Shown here in pieces: positions 10,921-24,255 of a stretch of DNA of 39,918 bases. Under the pieces are notes generated by a model. That model did no database searches and was not told where the DNA came from. It saw nothing but the letters and a program-made list of their open reading frames with translations. The position numbers and the translations under genes were made by a program. Positions within the stretch are counted from its first letter, which is position 1. Each line of letters opens with the position of its first letter. Source of the DNA: a virus; IMG/VR virus record IMGVR_UViG_3300044974_000026, positions 1-39,918 of that record; one strand, written 5' to 3'.

Positions 10921-11091
10921 GGAGTCTTGGGGCTAAACTCCTAACCGAAGGCGAAGTCCAAACGAAGCCGAAGGTTAGGGCTTCTACTAGGGCGACCCCT
11001 TAGGGTCGCAGTTAGTGTTCGGAGGCTCCGATAATTTCGCCTCCTCACTAGTACTATAGGTGTCCAAAAGGTCCTCATCGGACACTTTTGG
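10921..11091. repeat. Cluster of stem-loops upstream of terminase
   Basis: Inverted repeats seen here: GGAGT/ACTCC (10921-10941), CCTAACC/GGTTAGG (10940-10979), a perfect 7-bp stem GCGACCC with loop CTTA (10992-11009), TCGGA/TCCGA with loop GGC (11019-11031), which overlaps GGAGGC/GCCTCC (11021-11044), and GTGTCC/GGACAC (11060-11085) nested with CCAAAAG/CTTTTGG (11064-11091). None is followed by a good T-run, so they are not typical terminators. They lie in the leader of the late operon or in a packaging or operator site. Confidence 0.55.
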
Positions 11092-11175
11092 GTATGTGAT
11101 TTACGCCACATCTATAGTAAATCAGCAAAAGTGCAGGTCGGAGCCACATTTATGGGGGGCGAGGACTAGCAAAGT

Positions 11176-11199
11176 TATGTATGTATACACACATACATA
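11176..11199. repeat. Short A/T-rich hairpin
   Basis: TATGTATGT and ACATACATA form a perfect 9-bp inverted repeat around the loop ATACAC. It could extrude as a cruciform or bind a dimeric protein. It lies in the middle of the non-coding control region. Confidence 0.5.
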
Positions 11200-11245
11200 C
11201 ACTCGCACGCGTTTTAAAAACCCTGGGGTGCTTTACAGCACCTCA

Positions 11246-11303
11246 CACTGCTACTTGCAACACTGCACGGCACTGCTTGGCACGCTGCACTGCACTGCAT
11301 TGC
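11246..11303 (+). repeat. CACTGC iterations (iteron-like)
   Basis: Exact CACTGC at 11246, 11261, 11271, 11288 and 11293, with variants CGCTGC (11283) and CATTGC (11298). Two more exact copies lie outside the cluster at 11405 and 11547. The cluster is ahead of an A/T-rich stretch, as in iteron-type origins, but it may also be simple-sequence drift. Confidence 0.45.
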
Positions 11304-11512
11304 AAGAACTAGCAGGGCAGGCGGTTACAACTGCACAATCTCGTGCGCTGCATACATCGCCCCGCGCCCCGCCCCGCATTGTTTAAACACTCAAGCATTG
11401 CCCGCACTGCTGCCGATAGTTGAAAGTTCAACCAATCACGGGCAGCGCTGCAATCTGCTGCCAATCGGTAACATGCAAAAAACCCAATAAAATCACAAGC
11501 AATCTCACAACC

Positions 11513-11678
11513 GCGTTTTACCAAATATCACAAAACCATTGTTTTACACTGCTTTTTTGCTTGTTACTCACTTTCCAATTTCATGGCGTGAGAGGTTGTA
11601 GCGTGGCACGGCGTGAGCATCGTTTAAACCGTTTTACCAAAACAAGCCAAAAGTGATTGTTTTACGCTGTTTTTATGG
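11513..11678 (+). repeat. Imperfect direct repeat
   Basis: Two copies of a unit made of GTTTTACCAAA followed after about 12-14 bases by ATTGTTTTACRCTG and a T-run. Copy 1 runs from 11515 to about 11559 and copy 2 from 11631 to about 11675, 116 bases apart. TTGTTTTACA recurs at 14408, just ahead of another early gene, so the element may be part of early promoters or a regulator site. Confidence 0.5.
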
Positions 11679-11699
11679 GTTGTTGTAATCCGTTTAAAC
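11661..11699 (+). promoter_or_regulatory. Candidate early promoter with GTTTAAAC at its start site
   Basis: TTTACG (11661-11666) and TGTAAT (11684-11689) are separated by 17 bases and lie about 70 bases before the first early gene. The GTTTAAAC at 11692-11699 covers the expected transcription start, which would suit an operator. The hexamers match consensus only moderately. Confidence 0.3.
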
Positions 11700-11759
11700 C
11701 TATGCAACAATTCGGGCATCGGCGCAACACGGTGCCGATTGACTGGAAAGGCTCAAAAC

Positions 11760-11927
11760 ATGGCACGCCATGCATCAAGCGAAACTGCAACCAAGCAGAC
11801 AACCCGCCTGCGCAAAGTTCTTTGTGAGGTTGACGGTTACATTGCAAGAATCTCACGCTCAACCCTTATCACCTACGGCAGCCCAATCTGCCCCGCCTGC
11901 AATCAACCAATGAGAGAGGCGCGTTAA
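11760..11927 (+). CDS. Small basic protein with CxxC, 55 aa
   Basis: ATG at 11760 with GGAAAGG nine bases upstream, first gene of the plus-strand early operon. The N-terminal half is Arg/Lys/Thr rich and the C-terminus carries CPAC, half of a zinc ribbon (or a dimer-forming zinc site). It stops two bases before the ATG of the amidoligase. It may bind nucleic acid; no family recognised. Confidence 0.6.
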   Translation: MARHASSETATKQTTRLRKVLCEVDGYIARISRSTLITYGSPICPACNQPMREAR

Positions 11928-11929
11928 TC

Positions 11930-12724
11930 ATGACAACAACTTTTGGAATGGAGTTTGAAATCCAAGGCTTGAACCCAAGCCGTGCAGCCTCCGTACTCAA
12001 CAACGCAGGCATCACATGCAGCGCAACCAACGCAACGCATGAAACCTCCGACAACTGGAAAGCCGTTTATGACGGCAGCGTTGGAAACGGCGCGGAGGTT
12101 GTATCCCCAATCCTTAACCCTGCCCGTTTAAACGAGGCTCACAAAGTCACCAAGGCGCTCAAAAACGCAGGCGCACGGGTAGACCGTGCCACGGGTTACC
12201 ATGTCCACATTGGCGTAAACGCCTTTGGCGAATGGGGAAACGGCGGAGAGGATAACCTCGCCCGTTTTGTTCTCAACTGGTACGCAGTACACGGCGCAAT
12301 CGCTGCACTGGTAGCGCCAAGCCGTTTAAACAATCGTTACTGTGCAATTCTTGACCGCCGATACGCGGAGGCTCAAGCCAATTTCACCGCCAATCAAAAC
12401 CGTGGCGCAATGAATGGCAACCGCTACACCTCGCTCAATCTTGAATCCATGCACCGCCACGGCACCGTTGAAATACGCCTACACCAAGGCACGCTAAACG
12501 GCGTTAAGGCAATCGCATGGGCGCAATTCGTGGCAAGCATGATTAATGCCAGCGTAAACGGCTCAGACCTAACAACGATTGACGAACTCAATCCATGGAG
12601 CCTTGGCACGCTGCCACAGGTTGAAACCTGCAAAACCCTGCTTGATGCGCTTGTTGTGACTGGCAATCTCAACTCAAGCACGGGCGACTGGCTCAAGAAC
12701 CGCGCCACCAGTTTAAACGGGTAG
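11930..12724 (+). CDS. Amidoligase-family enzyme (COOH-NH2 ligase, GCS/GS-like fold)
   Basis: 264 aa. Motifs in family order: FGMEFE at 5-10 (metal/ATP-binding Glu pair), Asp48 with Glu56 and SP at 59-60, His91 and His93 (GYHVHIGV), NRYTSLNL at 164-171, and GTVEIRLHQGTLN at 178-190. This pattern matches Amidoligase_2 enzymes (Pfam PF12224), glutamine-synthetase/gamma-glutamylcysteine-synthetase-like ligases that couple a carboxylate to an amine using ATP. Such genes in phages and bacteria are known to sit near glutamine amidotransferases, and here one lies 650 bases downstream (13375-14226). The substrate is unknown: peptidoglycan stem peptides, a host protein or a small molecule are all possible. 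It contains three GTTTAAAC sites, each read as Leu-Asn. Confidence 0.88.
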   Translation: MTTTFGMEFEIQGLNPSRAASVLNNAGITCSATNATHETSDNWKAVYDGSVGNGAEVVSPILNPARLNEAHKVTKALKNAGARVDRATGYHVHIGVNAFGEWGNGGEDNLARFVLNWYAVHGAIAALVAPSRLNNRYCAILDRRYAEAQANFTANQNRGAMNGNRYTSLNLESMHRHGTVEIRLHQGTLNGVKAIAWAQFVASMINASVNGSDLTTIDELNPWSLGTLPQVETCKTLLDALVVTGNLNSSTGDWLKNRATSLNG

Positions 12725-12730
12725 CAGGTA

Positions 12731-12784
12731 GCCCGCCCCTAGTGGGCGTGCGTGGGTGCAATCCCCACGGCGGGCACGAACGCC
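12731..12784 (+). ncRNA. Structured RNA candidate, tRNA T-arm/acceptor-like
   Basis: Between the amidoligase stop and the next start. GCCCGC/GTGGGC (12731-12736 with 12742-12747) forms one hairpin. GTGGG/CCCAC with the 7-base loop TGCAATC (12752-12768) forms a second that looks like a tRNA T-arm. GGCGGGC (12769-12775) can instead pair with GCCCGCC (12731-12737), giving an acceptor-like stem. A third option pairs GGCG and TGC (12745-12751) with GCA and CGCC (12774-12784). There is no anticodon arm and position 2 of the T-loop is G, so this is not a functional tRNA. It may be a leader RNA controlling the downstream gene. Confidence 0.4.
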
Positions 12785-12825
12785 ACGGAAAGCCCGTTGC
12801 GTTTAAACAGATAGGACTGGAAACC

Positions 12826-13158
12826 ATGTACGAACAACCAACAGCACGCGAGCAATTCGCCCGCGATTGCATGCTTGTACTAGAAAACACACGCCCCGCA
12901 TACGAACACATCATGAAGAAAGCCAAGCGTTTAAACGCTAACGGCGAACCAGCGAACACGAACACGCACGCGTTGGCTGAATTTATCCGCGACTATGTGG
13001 AGAACACCATCGGCTTCGCCGTTGACCCCAAGCACAAGGAATCGGGAACCGTAGGCGCGTTACTTATCGCCCAAATCTGCACGGGTTGGGGAATTAATCC
13101 CTTCTATGACATGGCGCAAGACTTCATGAAAGCAGCAGCAGAAAGCGTAGGTGTTTAA
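12826..13158 (+). CDS. Conserved-looking hypothetical protein, 110 aa
   Basis: I use the ATG at 12826 (MYEQPTAREQ); the frame is open further upstream, but that extension would translate the structured RNA element. The protein is soluble and mostly helical, with many charged residues and a hydrophobic Gly-rich segment near the end. Its TAA is formed by a GTTTAAAC site (13153). It lies between the amidoligase and glutamine amidotransferase genes. No family recognised. Confidence 0.65.
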   Translation: MYEQPTAREQFARDCMLVLENTRPAYEHIMKKAKRLNANGEPANTNTHALAEFIRDYVENTIGFAVDPKHKESGTVGALLIAQICTGWGINPFYDMAQDFMKAAAESVGV

Positions 13159-13160
13159 AC

Positions 13161-13238
13161 ATGGAATACCTCAACGGCTCCGCGCTCGTACTGATTGCGC
13201 TCCTAGTGTGGGCACTGTACAAGGTGCGCAACTCATGA
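13161..13238 (+). CDS. Single-pass membrane micropeptide, 25 aa
   Basis: MEYLNGSALVLIALLVWALY then a short basic tail. Nearly all of it is one transmembrane helix (about residues 7-20). The stop overlaps the next ATG (ATGA), and the start is two bases after the previous stop. The tight packing supports a real gene. It could anchor or regulate a neighbour at the membrane. Confidence 0.5.
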   Translation: MEYLNGSALVLIALLVWALYKVRNS

Positions 13239-13312
13239 GCAGCGAGCGTTTAAACGAACGCGTCATGTGCGGTGACTGCTTGCGACCCGATTGCAAGGGT
13301 TGCGAGCGCTAA
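13235..13312 (+). CDS. Cys-rich micropeptide, 25 aa
   Basis: Starts at the ATGA overlap with the membrane micropeptide. Four cysteines in the pattern CGDC-x4-C-x2-C fit a single zinc knuckle. It carries one GTTTAAAC site read as Arg-Leu-Asn. Function unknown; the start-stop overlap is the main support. Confidence 0.45.
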   Translation: MSSERLNERVMCGDCLRPDCKGCER

Positions 13313-13330
13313 CCGTGCATGTGATACACT
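13300..13330 (+). promoter_or_regulatory. Candidate promoter for the glutamine amidotransferase gene
   Basis: TTGCGA (13300-13305) and TACACT (13325-13330) with 19 bases between, about 45 bases before the ATG at 13375. The -10 is good; the spacing is slightly long. The -35 overlaps the end of the preceding micro-ORF. Confidence 0.35.
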
Positions 13331-13374
13331 TCACCCATTAACCAACCAACAACAACAGACTGGAGATACAAAAT

Positions 13375-14226
13375 ATGTGCGGAATCGCAGGCTATTGCCT
13401 AGACCCTAAGCATTACTCACGCATTACCACAAGCGACCTCGCAGGGCAGATGCTCTACGACATTGAACACCGTGGACAACACGCAACAGGCGCTGCATGG
13501 ATTAACCCACGCAACGGCAGGCGTGTCATTAGCAAAGCGCCAACCAGCGCCACAAAGTTCGTGCCCAAAGCAGGCTCACGCCTATGTGACGGCGCGACCA
13601 CTGCAATCTTGCACACACGATGGGCAACTCAAGGCTCACCGAGTATCGCAAGCAACAACCACCCAATCCCACGCGGTAAAATCGTACTCACACACAACGG
13701 ACACATCAGCAACGACACCGAATTGTTTAAACAACTAGGTGTTCCTCGCGTTGGTCAGGTTGATAGTGAGGCTGCTGCTGCACTGATTGCCTTCTCCGAT
13801 GGCAAGCCTTGGGAAATCCTGCCCGAACTCTATGGCACGGCAGCGCTCGCATGGATTACACAACACGACCCACGAACGCTACACCTAGCCCGTGTCAATT
13901 CCTCCCCGCTATGGCTCGCGCAAGCCAACACAGGCTCGTTGTTCTACGGCTCAACACAGGAAACCGTAGAGAACGCTGCAATCATGGCAGACTGCGAGAT
14001 TGACTGGCTACATGAAGCAGCAGAGGGCGAGTACTTCAAGGTGCGTGACGGTCATGTGACCGAGTATCAAACCTTCACGCCTCGCACCTACGAACGCACA
14101 AACTGGTGGAGCAGTTACAGCCAGCCTGCCTACGCAACCGAACTTGATTACTTGGGCAGATACAACCAACGCAAGGCGGAAAAGTACGCTCGTTGGTGGG
14201 AGGACAAAGACGAACTAGCCTTCTAA
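13375..14226 (+). CDS. Class II glutamine amidotransferase, stand-alone
   Basis: Releases ammonia from glutamine through an N-terminal nucleophile cysteine. 283 aa beginning MCGIAGYC, so Cys2 becomes the nucleophile after Met removal. LHTRWATQG, NNHPI, LTHNGHISN and DSEAAAALI are the conserved glutamine-site motifs shared with GlmS/PurF glutaminase domains. No synthase or transferase domain follows: the C-terminal 70 residues are Tyr/Trp/Arg-rich and unlike SIS or PRTase. It therefore probably feeds ammonia to a partner, the amidoligase at 11930-12724 being the obvious candidate. GGAG lies nine bases before the start. A terminator follows at 14242, so the module ends here. One GTTTAAAC is read as Phe-Lys. 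Confidence 0.92.
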   Translation: MCGIAGYCLDPKHYSRITTSDLAGQMLYDIEHRGQHATGAAWINPRNGRRVISKAPTSATKFVPKAGSRLCDGATTAILHTRWATQGSPSIASNNHPIPRGKIVLTHNGHISNDTELFKQLGVPRVGQVDSEAAAALIAFSDGKPWEILPELYGTAALAWITQHDPRTLHLARVNSSPLWLAQANTGSLFYGSTQETVENAAIMADCEIDWLHEAAEGEYFKVRDGHVTEYQTFTPRTYERTNWWSSYSQPAYATELDYLGRYNQRKAEKYARWWEDKDELAF

Positions 14227-14241
14227 TAGTTTAAACAAGAG

Positions 14242-14268
14242 AACCCTCGCTGCGGCGGGGGTTTTTTT
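14242..14268 (+). terminator. Rho-independent terminator after glutamine amidotransferase
   Basis: Nine-base-pair stem (AACCCTCGC with GCGGGGGTT, one T-G pair) around loop TGCG, followed by seven T. It lies 15 bases after the stop, with a GTTTAAAC at 14229 between. Confidence 0.85.
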
Positions 14269-14400
14269 GTGCGCACAAATTGTAGCCAGATTATCTCTAC
14301 TGTTTAAACAGTTCACTCACTGCCGCCTGGAACCAGGTGTTCCATTACCTAGTGTTTAAACAACGCGTAAAATAATTTTAAAATTTCTGGTTGTAAATGC

Positions 14401-14430
14401 TTGACTTTTGTTTTACATGTGCGCAATACT
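14401..14430 (+). promoter_or_regulatory. Promoter for a probably leaderless early mRNA
   Basis: TTGACT (14401-14406), 18-base spacer, AATACT (14425-14430). The ATG at 14437 is where transcription would begin, so the message may be leaderless, as is common in actinobacteria. GTTTAAAC copies lie upstream at 14302 (inside the 12-bp palindrome CTGTTTAAACAG) and at 14354. Confidence 0.5.
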
Positions 14431-14436
14431 TACACC

Positions 14437-14658
14437 ATGACAGAACAACAAAGAACACAGCAGGAAATCAACACACTTCGCGCTAAGTTATTTAACAAAG
14501 CCGAACACATACTGAGAGAACTCTATCGTGACGACTTTCAGGTTATCTACGCCGAACTCTGCAAAGAGGCAGGCATTACTTGCCCACGCAATGACAAAGA
14601 TGCAGTGCGTGCAAGGTACCACCAACTAATCAAAGACATGAAACGACAGGAGAACTAA
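14437..14658 (+). CDS. Small helical protein, 73 aa
   Basis: First gene after the promoter at 14401. No Shine-Dalgarno sequence precedes the ATG at 14437, in keeping with a leaderless start; the upstream in-frame TTG (14401) lies in the -35 box and is unlikely. Highly charged, helical, with two cysteines. The C-terminal half is basic (ARYHQLIKDMKRQEN). No family recognised; possibly a small regulator. Confidence 0.65.
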   Translation: MTEQQRTQQEINTLRAKLFNKAEHILRELYRDDFQVIYAELCKEAGITCPRNDKDAVRARYHQLIKDMKRQEN

Positions 14659-14662
14659 ACAA

Positions 14663-14839
14663 ATGTACCTAGCGACTGGAGAAATGGTAGGAATCATCAT
14701 TGCACTAATCAGCGCACTAACCGTGCTTGGTTTTGCAATGAAAGACAACGCCCGTTTAAACAAGTACAACACATACCTACGCAAGCGTAACTTAGAACTG
14801 CTCAAGAAACTTGAGAACTCAGTAGAAAGACCCTTCTAA
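14663..14839 (+). CDS. Small membrane protein, 58 aa
   Basis: ATG at 14663 with AGGAGA nine bases upstream. One transmembrane segment (about residues 8-25, VGIIIALISALTVLGFA), then a basic, probably coiled cytoplasmic tail carrying one GTTTAAAC (Leu-Asn). Its stop overlaps the next start (TAATG). Function unknown. Confidence 0.65.
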   Translation: MYLATGEMVGIIIALISALTVLGFAMKDNARLNKYNTYLRKRNLELLKKLENSVERPF

Positions 14840-14976
14840 TGAGTAAATACACAGTATGGGTTGGCGGTGGCGAAGTCAACGACTACTACCTAACAGAGGC
14901 AGAGGCAAACGACATTGCCCAAGCATGGAGGGACAAAGGCTACGATGAAGTAGCAGTGGAGCGTGTAAACAAATGA
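14839..14976 (+). CDS. Small soluble protein, 45 aa
   Basis: Starts MSKYTVWVGGGEV and overlaps both neighbours (TAATG before, ATGA after). The beta-then-helix pattern (YYLTEAEANDIAQAWRDKG followed by VAVERV) resembles small phage proteins with one helix packed on a short sheet. No function assigned. Confidence 0.6.
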   Translation: MSKYTVWVGGGEVNDYYLTEAEANDIAQAWRDKGYDEVAVERVNK

Positions 14977-15119
14977 GTACCTGCGGAGTCTGCGGTGGCA
15001 CCATATCAAACACGCTCGTACCACACGGAGCAATCTGTGATGACGACATAAAAGCACCAAGCATCAACGACCTAATGAAATCACTAGACGAAGAAGAAAT
15101 GGAGGGAGAAAATGAGTAA
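14973..15119 (+). CDS. Small Cys-containing acidic protein, 48 aa
   Basis: ATGA overlap with the previous gene. CGVC at residues 4-7 and one more Cys at about 22 suggest a small metal site; the C-terminal half is strongly acidic. Its last eight bases overlap the next gene, whose Shine-Dalgarno sequence (GGAGGGA) lies inside it. Function unknown. Confidence 0.55.
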   Translation: MSTCGVCGGTISNTLVPHGAICDDDIKAPSINDLMKSLDEEEMEGENE

Positions 15120-15477
15120 ACCAAGACCAGTCAAAGGTGTAGTAATACGCCCCGATGGAACGCATGAGGAAAAGTTGTTTAAACAATTACCTGACTACCA
15201 AACAGGTGTTGATGGAACGATTGATGCCGTGCGTTTATACGATTACAACGGCATGGAAGTAGCCAACCTATATGTAAATGATGACGGACTACTGATTGGC
15301 TTGCCACTGAATCCAATGGCGAGCGCTATATCTTTCCTATTCGGCAACACGCCCCACCTTGTGGGCAATGTAGTTGCAGTAGGTAAGGCTGATGATGAAG
15401 GCTATGACACAGACCTTCCTGAATACTTACTCACACTGATACGAAACATCAGTGCCAAACAGGAACAGGAAGCATAA
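15112..15477 (+). CDS. DUF3846-like protein, 121 aa
   Basis: Contains DGTIDAVRL, YVNDDGLLIGLPLN and PHLVGNVVAVG, a pattern I recognise from DUF3846 proteins, which are small and common in actinobacterial phages and plasmids; their function is not established. Start supported by GGAGGGA seven bases upstream. The stop overlaps the next gene's ATG (TAATG). One GTTTAAAC is read as Phe-Lys. Confidence 0.75.
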   Translation: MSKPRPVKGVVIRPDGTHEEKLFKQLPDYQTGVDGTIDAVRLYDYNGMEVANLYVNDDGLLIGLPLNPMASAISFLFGNTPHLVGNVVAVGKADDEGYDTDLPEYLLTLIRNISAKQEQEA

Positions 15478-15917
15478 TGTTTAAACGATTAGTCGCCATC
15501 TTCCTCATCGTCACTGCATCGGTGGCGATAGACGACAGGTTCTTTGACAAATCACATGTGCCTCTCACACCATCGGTTAATGATGGCAAGGTGGCAGGCA
15601 CAGTGGTCGCCTTCTATGAGAACGAATACCAGCGTTATGCAGTGGACATGCTCATACAAATGGACAAACTAGAACAATGGACATGCCTCTACACATTATG
15701 GACACGAGAAAGTAACTGGAATCCACGCTCTCTCAATCGCAAGTCAGGCGCGTATGGAATTGCACAGTTCATGCCAGCAACATGGAAACTTGTAGGGTTT
15801 AAACGCACTGATGATGGGTTTGTTCAAGTTGAGGCAGGACTTGCATACATACAGCGCAAGTACGGTGGCAACATCTGCAAGGCGCTCGGCTCAAATCTAT
15901 CAAGAGGGTGGTACTAA
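15477..15917 (+). CDS. Secreted SLT-type lytic transglycosylase
   Basis: Predicted to cleave the glycan backbone of peptidoglycan outside the membrane. 146 aa. The N-terminus (MFKRLVAIFLIVTASVAI) is a short basic segment plus a hydrophobic core, so a signal peptide or anchor. Catalytic Glu78 sits in WTRESNWNP, and GAYGIAQFMPATW at 91-103 is the second SLT motif. It lies in the early operon, far from the lysis cassette at 23543-24462, so it may act in entry, wall remodelling or superinfection control rather than lysis. The ATG itself is part of a GTTTAAAC-containing stretch (15479). Confidence 0.85.
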   Translation: MFKRLVAIFLIVTASVAIDDRFFDKSHVPLTPSVNDGKVAGTVVAFYENEYQRYAVDMLIQMDKLEQWTCLYTLWTRESNWNPRSLNRKSGAYGIAQFMPATWKLVGFKRTDDGFVQVEAGLAYIQRKYGGNICKALGSNLSRGWY

Positions 15918-16102
15918 TGACCGAATATCAGGAACTAATACAAGGCTTAAAAAAGCACCTCATTCTCAGTGGTCTTACCTACAACGCAGAGGTACCATGG
16001 GAACCAATAATCACTAAACCAGTACGCGTTGAGATACTGGTAGCCTCAGTTATGGAGTATCTAAATGCAACAGGCTACGCCAACACAACCAAAATTTCAT
16101 AG
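15917..16102 (+). CDS. Small protein, 61 aa
   Basis: ATG at 15917 overlaps the previous stop (TAATG), preferred over a GTG nine bases upstream. Helical with a Pro/Trp-containing middle. It overlaps the WhiB start by 38 bases. No family recognised. Confidence 0.55.
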   Translation: MTEYQELIQGLKKHLILSGLTYNAEVPWEPIITKPVRVEILVASVMEYLNATGYANTTKIS

Positions 16103-16424
16103 AGTTCGCAAGGCTCTGCGTTTAAATGACCGCATGTATTACACGCTGTCGTACAACGCACGCAACTTTGAAGGTGCTAAATGCTTTGGAGTACCGACCG
16201 AAGTTTTCTATCCACTAACGGATAAGTTCACACCTGAGGAGGAGCGTTACATAAGGGAGCGAGTATGCGGTGGCTGCCCAGTCATTGAAGCCTGCGCCGA
16301 GTGGGGATTAGCCCACGAACGCTACGGTATATGGGGTGGAATGACACCAGTGATGCGTGATAGGGAGCGCAGACGGCGCAAGTGGGGACTAACCGACCCT
16401 GCCTTGAGCAACAACCAAAGATAG
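16065..16424 (+). CDS. whiB: WhiB-family transcription regulator
   Basis: Actinobacteria-specific iron-sulfur regulator that partners with the primary sigma factor. 119 aa with the four cluster cysteines at 40, 68, 71 and 77 (C-x27-C-x2-C-x5-C), the GIWGG turn at about 88-92 and a basic tail (RDRERRRRKWG) for DNA contact. This is the clearest host marker in the window. Start chosen at 16065, overlapping the previous gene; a later ATG at 16134 would keep all cysteines. It is the last gene of the plus-strand early operon and is followed by a terminator. It could redirect host sigma-dependent transcription or mimic a host WhiB. Confidence 0.95.
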   Translation: MQQATPTQPKFHRVRKALRLNDRMYYTLSYNARNFEGAKCFGVPTEVFYPLTDKFTPEEERYIRERVCGGCPVIEACAEWGLAHERYGIWGGMTPVMRDRERRRRKWGLTDPALSNNQR

Positions 16425-16440
16425 GTTAGACTAGAACAGC

Positions 16441-16485
16441 AAGCACCGCCTAGGTACCAGTCCCGAAAGCGGTGCTTGTTTATTT
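16441..16485 (+). terminator. Terminator after whiB
   Basis: Nine-base-pair perfect stem AAGCACCGC/GCGGTGCTT (16441-16449 and 16469-16477) with a 19-base loop, followed by TGTTTATTT. It separates the converging early (plus) and replication (minus) operons. The minus direction lacks a T-run. Confidence 0.75.
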
Positions 16486-16660
16486 ATGAAGCAGATTTAT
16501 CACCAGTAATAATACGAATAGCCCAGTCAAGACCAGTGTTTAAACCTTTAGACCATTCATCTTTCTCTGTAATCTTTGAGTACTCAATTTTCTGTACAAA
16601 CTTTTGTACGAACGCATTGTGTAGAAGGTTAAATCTTTCAAAGAATTCATCTTCCGTCAT
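16484..16660 (-). CDS. Small hypothetical protein, 58 aa
   Basis: Last gene of the replication operon. ATG at 16660 overlaps the dNMP kinase stop (ATGA). Starts MTEDEFFERFNLLHNAF; helical, with aromatic residues. GTTTAAAC sits two bases before the start codon (16662) and again inside (16538). No family recognised. Confidence 0.65.
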   Translation of the reverse strand: MTEDEFFERFNLLHNAFVQKFVQKIEYSKITEKDEWSKGLNTGLDWAIRIITGDKSAS

Positions 16661-17193
16661 AGTTTAAACACATTGTGCATGAGCATAAATATCTCATCAG
16701 ATAAATCATCAAGAGTTCCATCGTTGTAGATGGCGCGTTTAAACATGTGATTATCTAAAGCGTGTTCACTGATATGGTCATTGACTGCAGCATGGTTGTG
16801 TCTGTTGATGCGCCACACTTCCCCGCCTTGGCTCTCAATCATGCGTGCTTCGTTAGGAAAGCGCACATCAGGAATGACAATGCGTTCCCCTTCTGCAATC
16901 TCATTGAACAAACGCCACACCCACACATCTTCATGGATTAACTTACGCCCGACTTCAGTGCCCATGACTTGTAGCAAACGGCGCACTTCATCTTTAGCCT
17001 TGGCTATCTCCCACCCATACATCTGGACTATCTCGTTTAAACGGTGACCATCGTGAAGAATGGGGTTCAACGCAAGCAACGCCTGTCTTATTCCATCTGC
17101 AAATGCCATTCGTTTAAACCCATAGTTAAGCACGAGCAACTCGGCAACTGTATCTTTACCACTGCGAGCGTATCCACTCAGTCCGATAATCAT
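16657..17193 (-). CDS. Deoxynucleoside monophosphate kinase
   Basis: Phosphorylates dNMPs to dNDPs, recycling host nucleotides for phage DNA. 178 aa. P-loop GYARSGKDT at 7-15, typical of phage dNMP kinases (T4 gp1-like P-loop NMP kinases), then FADGIRQ, the lid-like arginine region and IVIPDVRFPNEA, the Walker-B-like strand of this family. AAGGAG lies seven bases before the ATG at 17193. In the replication operon, between a micro-ORF and the last gene. Four GTTTAAAC sites fall inside or at its ends. Confidence 0.9.
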   Translation of the reverse strand: MIIGLSGYARSGKDTVAELLVLNYGFKRMAFADGIRQALLALNPILHDGHRLNEIVQMYGWEIAKAKDEVRRLLQVMGTEVGRKLIHEDVWVWRLFNEIAEGERIVIPDVRFPNEARMIESQGGEVWRINRHNHAAVNDHISEHALDNHMFKRAIYNDGTLDDLSDEIFMLMHNVFKL

Positions 17194-17195
17194 TC

Positions 17196-17357
17196 CTACT
17201 CCTTCTTGTATGGGTCGTCTAACTGTTCTTTACCGCAAGTCATGCACCAGTAGTACTCAACTGGGTCGTCAATGCCATCACCTGCTAGTGTGCCAATCCA
17301 AAAATGGACACCAAACAAACACTTTAATCTGTTGTAATAATGCCAAAGATAAATCAT
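17196..17357 (-). CDS. Small protein with CxxC, 53 aa
   Basis: ATG at 17357 overlaps the sigma-like gene's TGA (ATGA); its TAG is two bases before the kinase start. Aromatic N-terminal half (MIYLWHYYNRLKCLFGVHFW) and a WCMTCGK motif near the end that could bind zinc with the upstream cysteine. Function unknown. Confidence 0.6.
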   Translation of the reverse strand: MIYLWHYYNRLKCLFGVHFWIGTLAGDGIDDPVEYYWCMTCGKEQLDDPYKKE

Positions 17358-18034
17358 TCTTGTTCCTCTTGGTTTCTAATCTCTGCTCTTGCTTCTGCGT
17401 TACTGCGAACACGCCTACGCCCACGCCACTGCGGTGCTTCGCCACCCAACCTGTCTTGCAACTTGGTTAGCGCACGCTTGACACGCTTACGCATCGCTTC
17501 TTCGGTGGCACCGTATGATTCAGCAAGCGCACCAAACTCCATACCACCATCGGCATAGCGCATACGCAACAGGTTTCTATCGTTCTCGTTTAAACGCTCT
17601 AGCCCTGCTGCTACATCTGACAGTAGCGCGACACGATTGCCACCTTCTGAAGGTTTAGCACTGCGTGAAATGTATTCACTACTCATGTCAGGCGTATCAG
17701 TCCACCCCTCATGAGTCCACACATCACGCAACAGTTCATGCAATACCTCATGTGTGTAGTAGAAACTGTCATTCATAGGTGAGCGTGACAAATGCGAGCG
17801 CTCTTTAGCAACATACTTTTGCGCTTCGTTATAGAAAGTCTTACGCAGTTTAAACTTCAGGCTTTCTTCTGCTGTCCACTGTTCCACCTTGTGCCAGTGT
17901 TCAAGCGCCCACAAAGACAAGTGCTGGTACACATCGTCAGTGGTTACAATCCCACGGTGCATGCGGTTAGCACGGGTTGCCACTTGACGGGCAACGCCGT
18001 AAATAGTTTCCCAAACTTTGTCTTGGCTATCCAT
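17354..18034 (-). CDS. Sigma-70-like RNA polymerase factor
   Basis: 226 aa from the ATG at 18034, preceded by GAGGAG. The C-terminal half has region-4 character: LERLNENDRNLLRMRYADG then a helix-turn-helix (FGALAESYGATEEAMRKRVKRAL), and an Arg-rich tail. The N-terminal half (VTTDDVYQHLSLWALEH through FYNEAQKYV) resembles a divergent region 2. It probably directs host RNA polymerase to phage promoters, perhaps the late operon. It could instead be a sigma-like regulator without full promoter recognition. GTTTAAAC occurs twice inside. Confidence 0.8.
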   Translation of the reverse strand: MDSQDKVWETIYGVARQVATRANRMHRGIVTTDDVYQHLSLWALEHWHKVEQWTAEESLKFKLRKTFYNEAQKYVAKERSHLSRSPMNDSFYYTHEVLHELLRDVWTHEGWTDTPDMSSEYISRSAKPSEGGNRVALLSDVAAGLERLNENDRNLLRMRYADGGMEFGALAESYGATEEAMRKRVKRALTKLQDRLGGEAPQWRGRRRVRSNAEARAEIRNQEEQE

Positions 18035-18036
18035 CG

Positions 18037-18492
18037 TCACTCCTCGTTAACTATCTCATCAACCCAGTAGTGTTTAAACTCTGCAGCATCTACGAAGATA
18101 ACAAGGTCGCGCTCTTTAGTATCCCAACGGGTATGGAATACGGGTACGATATTGCCTAGTTCACGGGCTGGTAGAATCAACAACCCATCAGCAAATCTAA
18201 AACAAATACGATGGAAACACTCAACCCCATCTGTATATGGTGGAGCAATTAGCATCTGTTGTAACTTATTGAATGGAAAAATGGCAGGTTTACTACTGTC
18301 ACTCTTAAGCCACTTGATTTCCATGTCACCGATATAGTTCTCACGGTCATTGCCGTGCAATTTAGTTACATGATAGTCAGTAAAATAAAAGCGAGGCGTG
18401 GTATAAAACTTCCACGGGTAAAGTTCAGCAAGTTTGGCAGCCATGATTTTCTCACGCTTACCGTCACCGTATACTTGGCGTATTGGTTCCAA
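18037..18492 (-). CDS. Possible PD-(D/E)XK-type nuclease, 151 aa
   Basis: TTG start at 18492 directly after the Toprim gene's TAA; an internal ATG at 18444 is the alternative. Asp56-x-Glu58-x-Lys60 (GDMEIKWLK) follows a strand and is preceded by acidic residues, which is suggestive of a PD-(D/E)XK nuclease core but not decisive. It lies within the replication operon. Otherwise unrecognised. Confidence 0.55.
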   Translation of the reverse strand: MEPIRQVYGDGKREKIMAAKLAELYPWKFYTTPRFYFTDYHVTKLHGNDRENYIGDMEIKWLKSDSSKPAIFPFNKLQQMLIAPPYTDGVECFHRICFRFADGLLILPARELGNIVPVFHTRWDTKERDLVIFVDAAEFKHYWVDEIVNEE

Positions 18493-19113
18493 TTAAACAC
18501 CTACTCGTTTGCGTAATCCCTCTGCTCCTTCAGCAAGGAACACATCGTTTACATCTTGGTTATCGGGCATGAACACGGGGAATACATTGTCCAATTCACG
18601 GGTGATTGTCTTAGCCATCTCTTTGCCTGCGTTATCACCATCGCAGAACAACATAATCTTTTCCCAGTCAGCAAGGACACGGGAGTAAAACGGTTTCCAG
18701 TTGTTAGCACCAGGCAATCCCACAGCAGAGAAGCCCACTTGTGTGGCGATGATGGTGTCTAATTCACCTTCGCAAATCACAAGGAAATCTGTATCATCAT
18801 TGAGCGCCTGAACATTGTAAATGTGGGTGCTGGCTCCTGGTCTTGATAGATACTTCGGTCCACTGTCATTGTTTAAACTACGGAAACGAATGTCAATCAC
18901 ACCTGATGGAGTCAAGTAAGGGATAGCCAACTTACCAAGGTAAGGTTCATGCCCTGCTTCAGGATTCGCCACGAAGCCGAGGCGGAACATACGAGCCGTT
19001 GCCTCTGCTATACCGCGACTCGCTAGATACGGTAGCGCTTCGCCTAGGCTTCCTTCGTAGTTCTCCGTTGCTTTCGCCAGTAATTCTCTCTGCGATTTTG
19101 AGAGCCTCGCCAT
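18493..19113 (-). CDS. Toprim-domain DNA primase subunit
   Basis: 206 aa. Toprim motifs: ICEGELD with catalytic Glu115, and DGDNAG at 158-163. The N-terminal 100 residues match the part of DnaG-like primases that precedes Toprim (FRSLNNDSGPKYLSRPG). It makes RNA primers for replication together with the zinc-finger protein encoded just upstream. AAGGAG lies six bases before the ATG at 19113. The first 155 bases overlap the 3' end of the zinc-finger gene in another frame, so the primase is split into two polypeptides. Confidence 0.9.
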   Translation of the reverse strand: MARLSKSQRELLAKATENYEGSLGEALPYLASRGIAEATARMFRLGFVANPEAGHEPYLGKLAIPYLTPSGVIDIRFRSLNNDSGPKYLSRPGASTHIYNVQALNDDTDFLVICEGELDTIIATQVGFSAVGLPGANNWKPFYSRVLADWEKIMLFCDGDNAGKEMAKTITRELDNVFPVFMPDNQDVNDVFLAEGAEGLRKRVGV

Positions 19114-19357
19114 AGGTAACTCCTTCTCGTTTCATAATGAGTGAATACACATCGCCTGCCATGTCGCAAGCAAAACATCTAAAGCCACCGTTGTCTATGT
19201 TTAAACGAGCAGACTTTACATGGTCATTGTGGAAGGCGCAACGCACTGATTGCCACCCGCCACGGTTAGTAGAGATTACAAATCCGTAGTGTTCTAATAC
19301 TTTAACGATGTCATGCTTAGAGGTTGGCGAGGACATCACTGAGTTTCTGAACGACAT
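18959..19357 (-). CDS. CHC2-type zinc finger primase subunit
   Basis: 132 aa from the ATG at 19357; a GTG at 19366 and an ATG at 19336 are alternatives. Zinc ligands Cys40, His43, Cys61 and Cys64 lie in VRCAFHND and GFRCFACD, the classic DnaG zinc-binding module that selects the template start site. The C-terminal 40 residues are basic and low-complexity and are dual-coded with the Toprim gene. It overlaps the Hjc-like gene's end by about 40 bases. One GTTTAAAC codes Leu-Asn between the zinc ligands. Confidence 0.88.
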   Translation of the reverse strand: MSFRNSVMSSPTSKHDIVKVLEHYGFVISTNRGGWQSVRCAFHNDHVKSARLNIDNGGFRCFACDMAGDVYSLIMKREGVTYGEALKIAERITGESNGELRRKPRRSATVSSESRYSRGNGSYVPPRLRGES

Positions 19358-19679
19358 ACGCTTCACCAACTCCCTTGTTGCTTGCCTTGATAATCACCAG
19401 TGGGGTAGGTGCAACGGCTAGTCGTTTAGCAACTCGGTAGTTCTCTGCCTCAATCTCTGCCTCACGAATCCAACCCGATAAATCAATGCGACCATCACGG
19501 CGTGGAGCCTTGGCTTCAACAACATAGGCACCGTTAACTCCTGGAACAAACACATCACCAACATCGTTGCGACCTGCACGAGGTAAGCGTTGTGCGTTTA
19601 AACCTTGCTCCATAAACCAATCGGTTAGGTCAATCTCCCACGCTGCGCCTCTACGCTTGTTGCTCTTTTGTAGACTCAC
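19317..19679 (-). CDS. Holliday-junction-resolvase-like PD-(D/E)XK nuclease
   Basis: 120 aa from the GTG at 19679, preceded by GAGGAGAG; upstream in-frame ATGs lie inside the previous gene and are unlikely. Glu15 (GAAWEIDL), Asp42 (NDVGDV), Glu55 and Lys57 (VVEAKA) form the E-D-ExK core of archaeal Hjc-type and related nucleases. Probably resolves branched replication intermediates or trims DNA before packaging. Overlaps the glycosyltransferase end by 29 bases. Confidence 0.8.
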   Translation of the reverse strand: MSLQKSNKRRGAAWEIDLTDWFMEQGLNAQRLPRAGRNDVGDVFVPGVNGAYVVEAKAPRRDGRIDLSGWIREAEIEAENYRVAKRLAVAPTPLVIIKASNKGVGEAYVVQKLSDVLANL

Positions 19680-20388
19680 GCTCTCTCCTCTCTGCTGCTT
19701 CAACTGCTGCCCAATACAGGTTGTAGTAGGCATCATCAAATGCAAACCGTTTCATGTGCTTGGCAATCACACCAGTGTGGGCATGTACGGGTATGCCCGC
19801 AGCCTTAACCTTTCGGAAGAAGGAAATGTCCTCACCAATAAACTTCTCGCCACGCTCGTTGTTCTCACCAAACCAAAACTGATTTGGGAACTTCTCGTTT
19901 AAACTTTTGAGTACGCTCTTGTGCATCATCACTAGACCCATACCCGCATTGTCAACCTTTACTACTTGGTTCTTAGGTAAAGGGTGGAGATAACTAATCT
20001 CATACTCGTTGCCTGTTTCATTAAAGACACATGGCATTGGCTGCATGAGCGAGCCTTCCATGTTCTTACTAATGAAGTAGACACCGCTTACTACGGGGCG
20101 TGCAACTTTGTCAGCCGTATCCCATAGAGTCTTGAGCATCTCTTTAGTTAGCACAATGTCAGAATCAACCCATAACGCCCAGTCAGTCCCAACCTTTTGC
20201 CACATCTCTATGGCAGCCTGTCGCTGGCGAGCAATCTGATTACCTTGGACACGGATAGCATTGTTAACTGGCACGCCAACACTTGCTGCGTGAATCAATG
20301 TATAGACCAAACCTTCAGTGAACTTGCCATCGGTTGTGCCATTATCACACCACACGATAGATAAAGTTTCTTTGTTGCTATGAACCAT
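19651..20388 (-). CDS. GT-A fold glycosyltransferase-like protein
   Basis: 245 aa from the ATG at 20388 (AAGAGGA ten bases upstream). The DxD-like WVDSDIVL, then VDNAGMGLVMMHKSV and GEDISFFRKVKAAG, are in the order seen in GT-A (GT2-like) transferases that move a sugar from a nucleotide donor. No membrane segment. It sits inside the replication operon, which raises the possibility of DNA or phage-protein glycosylation, although similar proteins are common in actinophages with no known target. Confidence 0.8.
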   Translation of the reverse strand: MVHSNKETLSIVWCDNGTTDGKFTEGLVYTLIHAASVGVPVNNAIRVQGNQIARQRQAAIEMWQKVGTDWALWVDSDIVLTKEMLKTLWDTADKVARPVVSGVYFISKNMEGSLMQPMPCVFNETGNEYEISYLHPLPKNQVVKVDNAGMGLVMMHKSVLKSLNEKFPNQFWFGENNERGEKFIGEDISFFRKVKAAGIPVHAHTGVIAKHMKRFAFDDAYYNLYWAAVEAAERRERESTKEQQA

Positions 20389-20797
20389 GGTTATGAATCC
20401 TCTTTTCAGACTTATCAATAACTGTCATTGCGTTCTCGGCTAACTCTTTAAAGTTCTCCGACATAAGAATTAGTTTTTCTGTGACTTCCCTTCTGCATCC
20501 TTCGTCACATTCTTCCCTGAGATGAGAAGCAAGTTGTTCCACATAGTCAGCAAACTGGAGTGACTCAAGCCAGATGGCGGAAGGATTGAAGATTTTGTTT
20601 GTCGCTTCATCAACATATTCCACAAAGTTAGGAAGTTCATTCAGTAGAGTTTCCTTCAGTTCCTGTGGAATGTTCGCTTCCTGTATCGCTTCCTCCACCA
20701 TCTCTGGTGTAATTGACTGTTCCAACTGAAAGAAGTGTTTTGTATTCTTCTTCCGTGAGTTCTTTGAACTGTCCCGTTTCTTTCTTGCGCCAAACAT
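20378..20797 (-). CDS. Helical hypothetical protein, 139 aa
   Basis: ATG at 20797 with GGAG five bases upstream. The first 23 residues are very basic, then a long acidic helical region (ITPEMVEEAIQEANIPQ). Overlaps the upstream gene by 161 bases in another frame, and the glycosyltransferase start by 11. An internal ATG at 20701 would shorten the overlap. No family recognised. Confidence 0.6.
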   Translation of the reverse strand: MFGARKKRDSSKNSRKKNTKHFFQLEQSITPEMVEEAIQEANIPQELKETLLNELPNFVEYVDEATNKIFNPSAIWLESLQFADYVEQLASHLREECDEGCRREVTEKLILMSENFKELAENAMTVIDKSEKRIHNHGS

Positions 20798-23542: not shown

Positions 23543-23725
23543 TTATTTTGCTCTGCCGAATTCGCTTGCGGAAGGGTCCAACCACTTCAACACTGGACCG
23601 AGGAAGCCTGCGAGGGCAGCCATGCCTAGTGTTTTCAAATCGGTTTCGCCAGCGAGGTAGAGCGCGATTGCAGCAGATGCTGCAGCACGGAACCATGTGA
23701 GCGATACTTGCTTTAGTGTTTCCAT
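23543..23725 (-). CDS. Holin-like membrane protein
   Basis: 60 aa, directly after the endolysin with a one-base overlap (TAATG). Two hydrophobic segments (about 10-27 and 33-48) separated by a short polar turn (AGETDLKT), and a charged C-terminus. Size, position and topology fit a holin that times release of the M15 endolysin, but similar size proteins can be antiholins. Confidence 0.75.
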   Translation of the reverse strand: METLKQVSLTWFRAAASAAIALYLAGETDLKTLGMAALAGFLGPVLKWLDPSASEFGRAK

Positions 23726-24255
23726 TATTTGCCTTTCTTGTTAGCCAAACCATGAACCTTGCAGCAGGTGCATACTTCAGATACAACCTTTGCAGGCTTT
23801 TTCTTAGGTGATGAACCGATGGCTTCTGCCACTATCTGCTTGGCTAGGCTTGGTTGATTTTTCCACCAGAACCAAGGGCTTGTATCGTTGGCAAACTCTG
23901 GCTTGATGGAACAGTGCAGGTGTTTATTATGCGGATTACTACCCGTATATTTTCGGTCACCCTGCTTGGCGTATTTCCGTGACCAAATCTTTCCGTTGAA
24001 GATGAGATAGTCAACTCTGTTATCTTCTTTGAGTTTCTGAAATATCTCGTGACAATCAATTCCGTTTGCGGGGTCATGGGTTAAGTCTACCGCAAGACCT
24101 GTGTTGTGGTCTGAGTTAGGACTTAGTTTTAAATGTGCAGTGGAAGGGAGTAAACCGTCTGAGGCTTTCTTGCGTAGGGGTGCAAGGGCAGTCGCCTGGC
24201 GTAGCATGGACATGGCAGCAGGGCTGGCAGACTTGGCAACCTTGGGTTTGTTCAT
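23725..24255 (-). CDS. Endolysin, M15 (VanY-like) peptidase
   Basis: 176 aa. SDHNTGLAVDLTHD (His50, Asp57) and HNKHLHC (His112/His114) are the zinc ligands and catalytic region of M15 D,D/L,D-carboxypeptidase-type endolysins, which cleave peptidoglycan stem peptides. The C-terminal 45 residues, with a Pro/Lys linker and a CTCC motif, may be a wall-binding or metal segment. No signal peptide, so a holin is needed. Lies between a membrane protein and the holin. Confidence 0.88.
   Translation of the reverse strand: MNKPKVAKSASPAAMSMLRQATALAPLRKKASDGLLPSTAHLKLSPNSDHNTGLAVDLTHDPANGIDCHEIFQKLKEDNRVDYLIFNGKIWSRKYAKQGDRKYTGSNPHNKHLHCSIKPEFANDTSPWFWWKNQPSLAKQIVAEAIGSSPKKKPAKVVSEVCTCCKVHGLANKKGK

Follow-up and report, generated by a model that had tools for sequence, protein, structure and literature searches.

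The 39.9-kb virus record IMGVR_UViG_3300044974_000026 (39,918 nucleotides (nt), analysed over its whole length and referred to as the window) carries, at 11930-14226, a module in which the genes of an amidoligase and a stand-alone class II glutamine amidotransferase (GAT) are separated by three small genes and by a structured RNA that resembles the top half of a tRNA. The explanation that we favour, with modest confidence, is that the two enzymes constitute a glutamine-dependent, amide-forming system of actinophages, with a carboxylate of an envelope peptide as its favoured but tentative substrate, and that the RNA is a separate element that sets the 3′ terminus of the amidoligase mRNA. This RNA lies between the amidoligase gene and the first small gene; it was overlooked in an earlier note on this DNA and is the more novel part of the interval. 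Amidoligase and glutaminase pairs of phages have been annotated for years.

The window contains terminase and portal genes as well as a WhiB gene (identified with Pfam), which indicates that the phage is an actinophage. The module is described as early from its position only. Its principal features are as follows:

11930..12724, plus strand: amidoligase of the glutamine synthetase (GS) fold, 264 amino acids (aa) (Pfam PF12224 Amidoligase_2, E=1.4e-24)
12731..12775, plus strand: tRNA-top-half-like structured RNA, 45 nt (covariance model R1, 72.6 bits)
12776..12808, plus strand: further hairpin immediately 3′ of the RNA, variable in sequence (stem at 12778-12804, continuing into GTTTAAAC)
13375..14226, plus strand: stand-alone class II GAT, 283 aa (PF13522 GATase_6, 1.8e-16)

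The amidoligase and its glutaminase partner

Both enzyme genes had been proposed in the earlier note; they were found at the positions and on the strand given above, and their families were matched by Pfam and PHROG. Relatives were gathered from public viral contigs, using amidoligase as well as glutaminase queries. The amidoligase scores 87.7 bits against PF12224 (cut-off of 22) and also matches PHROG 2443. Across 45 distinct relatives the conserved residues are G6, E8, E10, W43, D48, E56, G89, H91, H93, S131, R132, R165, E181, R183 and H185, with the ExE, HxH and ExR motifs (E8/E10, H91/H93 and E181/R183) at least 97% conserved, and the ratio of nonsynonymous to synonymous substitution rates (dN/dS, ~0.15-0.35) indicates purifying selection.

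When PDB sequences were searched with an amidoligase profile, the only matches were spurious ones to repeat proteins, but the search by fold did succeed: the AlphaFold2 (AF2) model (predicted local distance difference test score (pLDDT) of 89) was matched by Foldseek to YbdK (1r8g, 2.7e-05) and also to glutamine synthetases, Dop and PafA. The protein is an intact member of PF12224 with a predicted GS-like fold.

The GAT begins with Met-Cys, also matches PHROG 14519 and is similar in sequence to GlmS (1xff, 3.3e-13). It possesses the HTRWAT, HNG and VDSE motifs and the N-terminal catalytic Cys, and residues C2, R82, T85, N108, G109 and D130 are kept across relatives; for both enzymes, the active-site positions are those that we take to apply from established knowledge of GS and GlmS. 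Since Pfam detects a single domain in the 283 aa and no fused synthase domain, the protein is a stand-alone glutaminase and not GlmS or PurF, and presumably serves a separate synthase. It is under purifying selection (dN/dS ~0.07-0.17) and is more conserved than the amidoligase.

A short conserved C-terminal tail of the GAT, perhaps a docking tail, has Phe as its last residue in almost every member of the window group (...ELAF in the window); the proteins of the Arthrobacter, Alcaligenes and Vibrio phages show no such ending. A pattern scan of bacterial genomes for the GAT yielded no true relative.

Among the distinct glutaminase loci of relatives, 72 have 1.7 kb or more of upstream sequence, and in all 72 the two genes stand in the same order, with the amidoligase gene on the same strand and at most 1.6 kb from the GAT gene. 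The co-occurrence of the pair across phages, which the earlier note had proposed as a check, was therefore borne out, and the probable catalytic residues whose loss in relatives it had named as an argument against the pair (Cys2 of the GAT and the Glu/His residues of the amidoligase) are retained. Its proposal of an amide-forming pair that would use glutamine and ATP gains support from the families, the predicted fold, the conserved catalytic residues and the invariant pairing.

In the mechanism that we envisage, the GAT would release ammonia from glutamine, and this ammonia would pass to the amidoligase, which would activate a carboxylate with ATP and join the ammonia (or a small amine) to it, while a membrane microprotein encoded in the module may bring the enzymes to the membrane. 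YbdK, GS and Dop/PafA act on Glu-type carboxylates. We favour a carboxylate of an envelope peptide because these nearest folds act on such groups and because the module encodes a membrane microprotein. More specifically, we tentatively regard as the likeliest of several candidates a Glu-type carboxylate in an envelope peptide of the host, e.g. D-isoglutamate or diaminopimelate of peptidoglycan precursors.

The tRNA-top-half-like RNA

The RNA is composed of the stem P1 (12731-12736 paired with 12770-12775), the segment CCC-UAGU-GGG, and the stem P3 with a 7-nt T-loop, UGCAAUC. Comparison of the intervals gave the consensus GCCYGC-CCC-WAGU-GGG-linker-CNNNRG-[UGCRAYY or AGCGUWA]-CYNNNG-GCRGGC. 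In an alignment of 27 diverse copies, 99.8% of the cells are paired, and 11 of the 16 pairs show compensatory change on both sides (53 cells); none of 500 shuffles reached 11 pairs, and slid controls gave 1-2 pairs. Positions 1 and 5 of the T-loop switch jointly between U-A and A-U (a U54-A58-like pair), as a T-loop predicts. The CCC/GGG mini-hairpin is invariant and therefore offers no covariation test; the segment could instead be a mimic of the D-loop. The structure is visible only by comparison, single-sequence folding of the RNA with its flanks giving z = -0.05.

The hairpin that follows varies freely in sequence but stays paired: in about 40 distinct sequences its stems differ widely, with folding energies of about -9 to -24 kcal/mol, and it ends in GTTTAAAC ahead of the next ribosome-binding site. 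Two loci (L008 and L012) contain a second, diverged copy of the architecture of the tRNA-like RNA between the amidoligase gene and the 110-aa gene (GGGTTG-ACGG-GTTAG-CCGT-TGA-CTAGG-TGCAATT-CCTAG-CAACCC), which the covariance model does not find.

The window RNA can be compared with the top half of tRNA, the tRNA-like domain of transfer-messenger RNA (tmRNA) and the MALAT1 mascRNA: its acceptor-like stem and its T-arm, which ends in a T-loop, form a 12-bp stack, it has a D-loop-like AGUGGG, and after the stem comes an invariant purine-C that recalls the RCCA end of tRNA. The window RNA differs from them in having neither an anticodon arm nor CCA, and in its T-loop, which is UGCRAYY and not UUCRANY. 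The tRNA-like appearance is a structural resemblance, not membership. In Rfam, no family reaches its cut-off for the RNA, including tRNA, tmRNA and the glutamine riboswitches; in antisense, an Rfam model that resembles tRNA gave a weak match, and one copy of the RNA likewise matched the 3′ half of a phage tRNA-Trp.

The position of the RNA is fixed. Its core lies at most 40 nt from the amidoligase stop codon in 72/72 loci, and in 59 loci the spacer measures 6-11 nt and the stop codon is UAA or UAG, never UGA. The covariance model finds one copy per genome; a single genome shows two, probably because the ends of its contig overlap. None of the isolate phage records searched contains the RNA (blastn), and a pattern search of bacterial genomes returned 9 chance-like matches, the best of only 16 bits. 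With this result and that of the GAT scan, the idea of a bacterial origin was set aside.

The RNA is also present in L115, L118, L131, L152, L157 and L162, in each case a few nt after a stop codon, and these phage contigs have neither an amidoligase or glutaminase gene nor GTTTAAAC sites. Two enzyme-free contigs with the RNA carry WhiB and are thus actinophages. With a single copy per genome, also in such phages, the RNA is probably independent of the module. Its fixed distance from the stop codon, combined with its varied neighbours, points to an action on the end of the upstream message or to an independent tRNA-like RNA. In the reading that we prefer, it would be recognized like a tRNA, by processing of the RNase P/RNase Z type or as a stable 3′ cap, and would thereby determine where the amidoligase mRNA ends.

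We are inclined to regard the RNA as a new class, single-copy and tRNA-top-half-like, of freshwater actinophages, which lies a few nt past a stop codon, would work independently of its neighbours (as a decoy for tRNA, or in message processing or 3′-end formation) and has the amidoligase module as its commonest site. Among freshwater actinobacteria, the Nanopelagicales are a candidate host group for which phages have been isolated (PMC10202952). If the covariation is read correctly, an uncatalogued tRNA-like RNA is added to the actinobacterial phages. Gene finding in such genomes would gain a concrete marker, and the use of tRNA mimicry by phage operons would become directly testable.

Alternative readings of the pair and the RNA

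Several observations weigh against the favoured explanation. Some phages have an amidoligase and a cyclotransferase and no adjacent glutaminase, which indicates that an amidoligase can work without a glutaminase partner, and the structure model of the GAT is weak (pLDDT 69.8). As for the RNA, its 3′ end reads RCNR and never CCA, neither ARAGORN nor the Rfam tRNA model recognizes it, and its presence in phage contigs with neither enzyme shows that it is not specific to amidation.

The phages without a neighbouring glutaminase, the matches of the amidoligase model to PafA/Dop and YbdK-type ligases and the cyclotransferase of six other amidoligase phages would suit an enzyme whose partner substrate is not ammonia but an amino acid, an amine or a protein lysine, joined through a gamma-glutamyl or isopeptide bond; the GAT would then be a separate N-terminal nucleophile (Ntn) hydrolase for trimming or degradation of what the amidoligase makes. 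We consider this possible but doubtful, given the lack of a cyclotransferase in the window group (0/13) and the GAT itself, which keeps a complete GlmS-type glutaminase motif and is better conserved than its partner. The structural similarity to Dop and PafA, in a phage marked as an actinophage by its WhiB gene, might also suggest that the pair amidates a host protein (e.g. Pup, whose C-terminal Gln would be restored, or a regulator, one Glu of which would be masked) and so blocks host proteolysis or signalling. This similarity, however, spans the whole GS superfamily, no tie of the module to Pup was found, and amidoligase homologues occur in phages of Firmicutes and Bacteroidetes, whose hosts have no Pup; we therefore hold such a role to be improbable. 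Modification of a nucleotide or DNA base precursor, an idea of the earlier note, is in our opinion very improbable: a deoxynucleoside monophosphate (dNMP) kinase (16657-17193) and a glycosyltransferase of the GT2 type (19651-20418) are encoded nearby in the early region, but many phages whose DNA is unmodified also encode dNMP kinases, and the idea is weakened because the early genes scanned include no deazaguanine gene and no hydroxymethylase resembling thymidylate synthase.

For the RNA, the main rival to a 3′-end element is a metabolite-sensing riboswitch (e.g. for glutamine) that would control the small genes and the glutaminase by way of the variable hairpin that precedes the Shine-Dalgarno sequence. 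The arrangement fits, in that a conserved folded core is followed by a paired but variable hairpin reaching the next ribosome-binding site and precedes a glutamine-using enzyme, and T-loops occur in riboswitch aptamers. We nevertheless judge a riboswitch unlikely, because the RNA matches neither the glutamine riboswitches nor other Rfam families, also sits before unrelated genes, keeps a fixed position with respect to the stop codon that precedes it and is followed, in L131, by a promoter-like sequence. A compact structure 6-11 nt after UAA or UAG also has the geometry of viral readthrough signals, but no frame is consistently open through the RNA (42%, 36% and 69% of loci), and we give hardly any credence to stimulated readthrough or frameshifting of the amidoligase; a recoding signal was rejected on this ground. 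Also rejected, as a default, was the idea that the amidoligase amidates this RNA as its specific substrate, since the RNA exists without the enzymes.

The rest of the module and its known counterparts

The remaining features of the module, and the repeat field in which it is embedded, are:

12826..13158, plus strand: 110-aa gene of unknown function (no Pfam match above cut-off)
13161..13238, plus strand: 25-aa hydrophobic membrane microprotein, MEYLNGSALVLIALLVWALYKVRNS
13235..13312, plus strand: 25-aa Cys4 microprotein ending CGDCLRPDCKGCER, a putative zinc knuckle
14242..14270, plus strand: intrinsic terminator closing the module (hairpin 14242-14263 and T-run, -14.4 kcal/mol)
11381..19904, no strand: GTTTAAAC field (30 of the window's 38 copies, several at gene junctions)

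The three small genes between the enzymes, which the earlier note treated as part of the set, are all present in the window, and two of them recur with the pair. Of 61 intervals between the two enzymes, at least 49 encode a hydrophobic microprotein (25-41 aa), and the Cys4 motif CGDCxxxxCxGC directly upstream of the GAT in 38/61 loci; the ratios of nonsynonymous to synonymous polymorphism (pN/pS, 0.49 and 0.16, respectively) indicate purifying selection on both. In many relatives the Cys4 microprotein is ~66 aa long and has a second knuckle. The 110-aa gene, present in few relatives, is optional and cannot be counted as a fixed member. The view of the module as a discrete cassette ending in a terminator agrees with the hairpin and T-run found here (missed by a generic terminator scan) and with a terminator-like site after the GAT in 49/57 relatives.

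The palindromic 8-mer GTTTAAAC occurs in 38 copies in the window (0.95 expected), spanning 1751-35449, often at gene junctions in the form ...GGT-GTTTAAAC-ATG. Close relatives gain or lose whole small genes, and GTTTAAAC-containing direct repeats lie at the junctions (all five of the listed junction repeats of at least 8 nt); in this breakpoint analysis only close pairs were interpretable, distant pairs being too noisy. In the lineage of L020, L021, L022 and L040 most sites read GTTTAGAC or GTCTAAAC, apparently at corresponding positions of the amidoligase-GAT interval. That the sites changed in concert suggests that a protein binds them sequence-specifically, and they may be likened to the stoperators of mycobacteriophages as protein-bound repeats (PMC9283540, PMC6550527).

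Elsewhere in the window, ~700 bases at 11060-11760, between the divergent terminase and early genes, contain no convincing gene and many TGCA-containing repeats, and could carry an origin or early promoters. Downstream of the module, a secreted-looking SLT lytic transglycosylase (PF01464) is encoded at 15477-15917. The gene at 23725-24255 may encode an M15-like peptidase (judged by eye); its sole match is PHROG 32486, of unknown function.

The amidoligase and glutaminase pair is already known from other phages (it was seen in Arthrobacter phages Kovu and Ottawa and in Alcaligenes phage QDWS535), and the window group is a variant of it. In 2009, Iyer et al. reportedly reviewed GS-like amidoligases (GS-fold carboxylate-amine ligases) and their association, by context, with domains of the GAT-II and cyclotransferase types; the RNA, the microproteins and a cyclotransferase-free form are not known to be described in that work. 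The gamma-glutamyl cyclotransferase PF06094 is a point of difference, being found in 0/13 window-group genomes and in 6/6 other amidoligase phages tested.

In the Arthrobacter phages of cluster AL and their relatives (Kovu, Laroye, Salgado, Ottawa), an amidoligase, a glutamine amidotransferase and a gamma-glutamyl cyclotransferase are annotated. These are likewise actinophages with a WhiB gene, in which the amidoligase (28-30% identity to that of the window) is directly followed by a homologous glutaminase (35-38%). Unlike the window, they have the cyclotransferase, an N-terminal extension on the amidoligase (helix-turn-helix-like by eye) and a gap of only ~100 nt between the genes, with no tRNA-like RNA and no Cys4 microprotein. 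An AIG2-like protein and an amidoligase are listed for cluster AL phages (PMC5513430).

The enzyme pair is also carried by the LUZ24-like phage UFV-P2 (PMC3890496). In LUZ24-like Pseudomonas phages and in Alcaligenes and Vibrio phages it lies, as in the window, within one gene block, but this block contains extra ligases (ATP-grasp and the COOH-NH2 ligase PF14395) and a cyclotransferase/AIG2 protein, and the glutaminases bear long C-terminal additions unlike that of the window. In two Pseudomonas phages evolved in the laboratory, missense changes arose in the amidoligase gene as well as in that of the glutaminase type (PMC11450229), which is consistent with a joint function of the two.

The window pair does not belong to the MurT/GatD system of peptidoglycan amidation, which is composed of a Mur-ligase-like MurT and a CobQ-type class I GatD, whereas the window combines PF12224 with a class II GATase_6 (Pfam); it is a functional analogue at most. 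Among the known cassettes the window group represents a reduced form, with no cyclotransferase, a single-domain glutaminase and small genes, which could serve as a minimal assay system.

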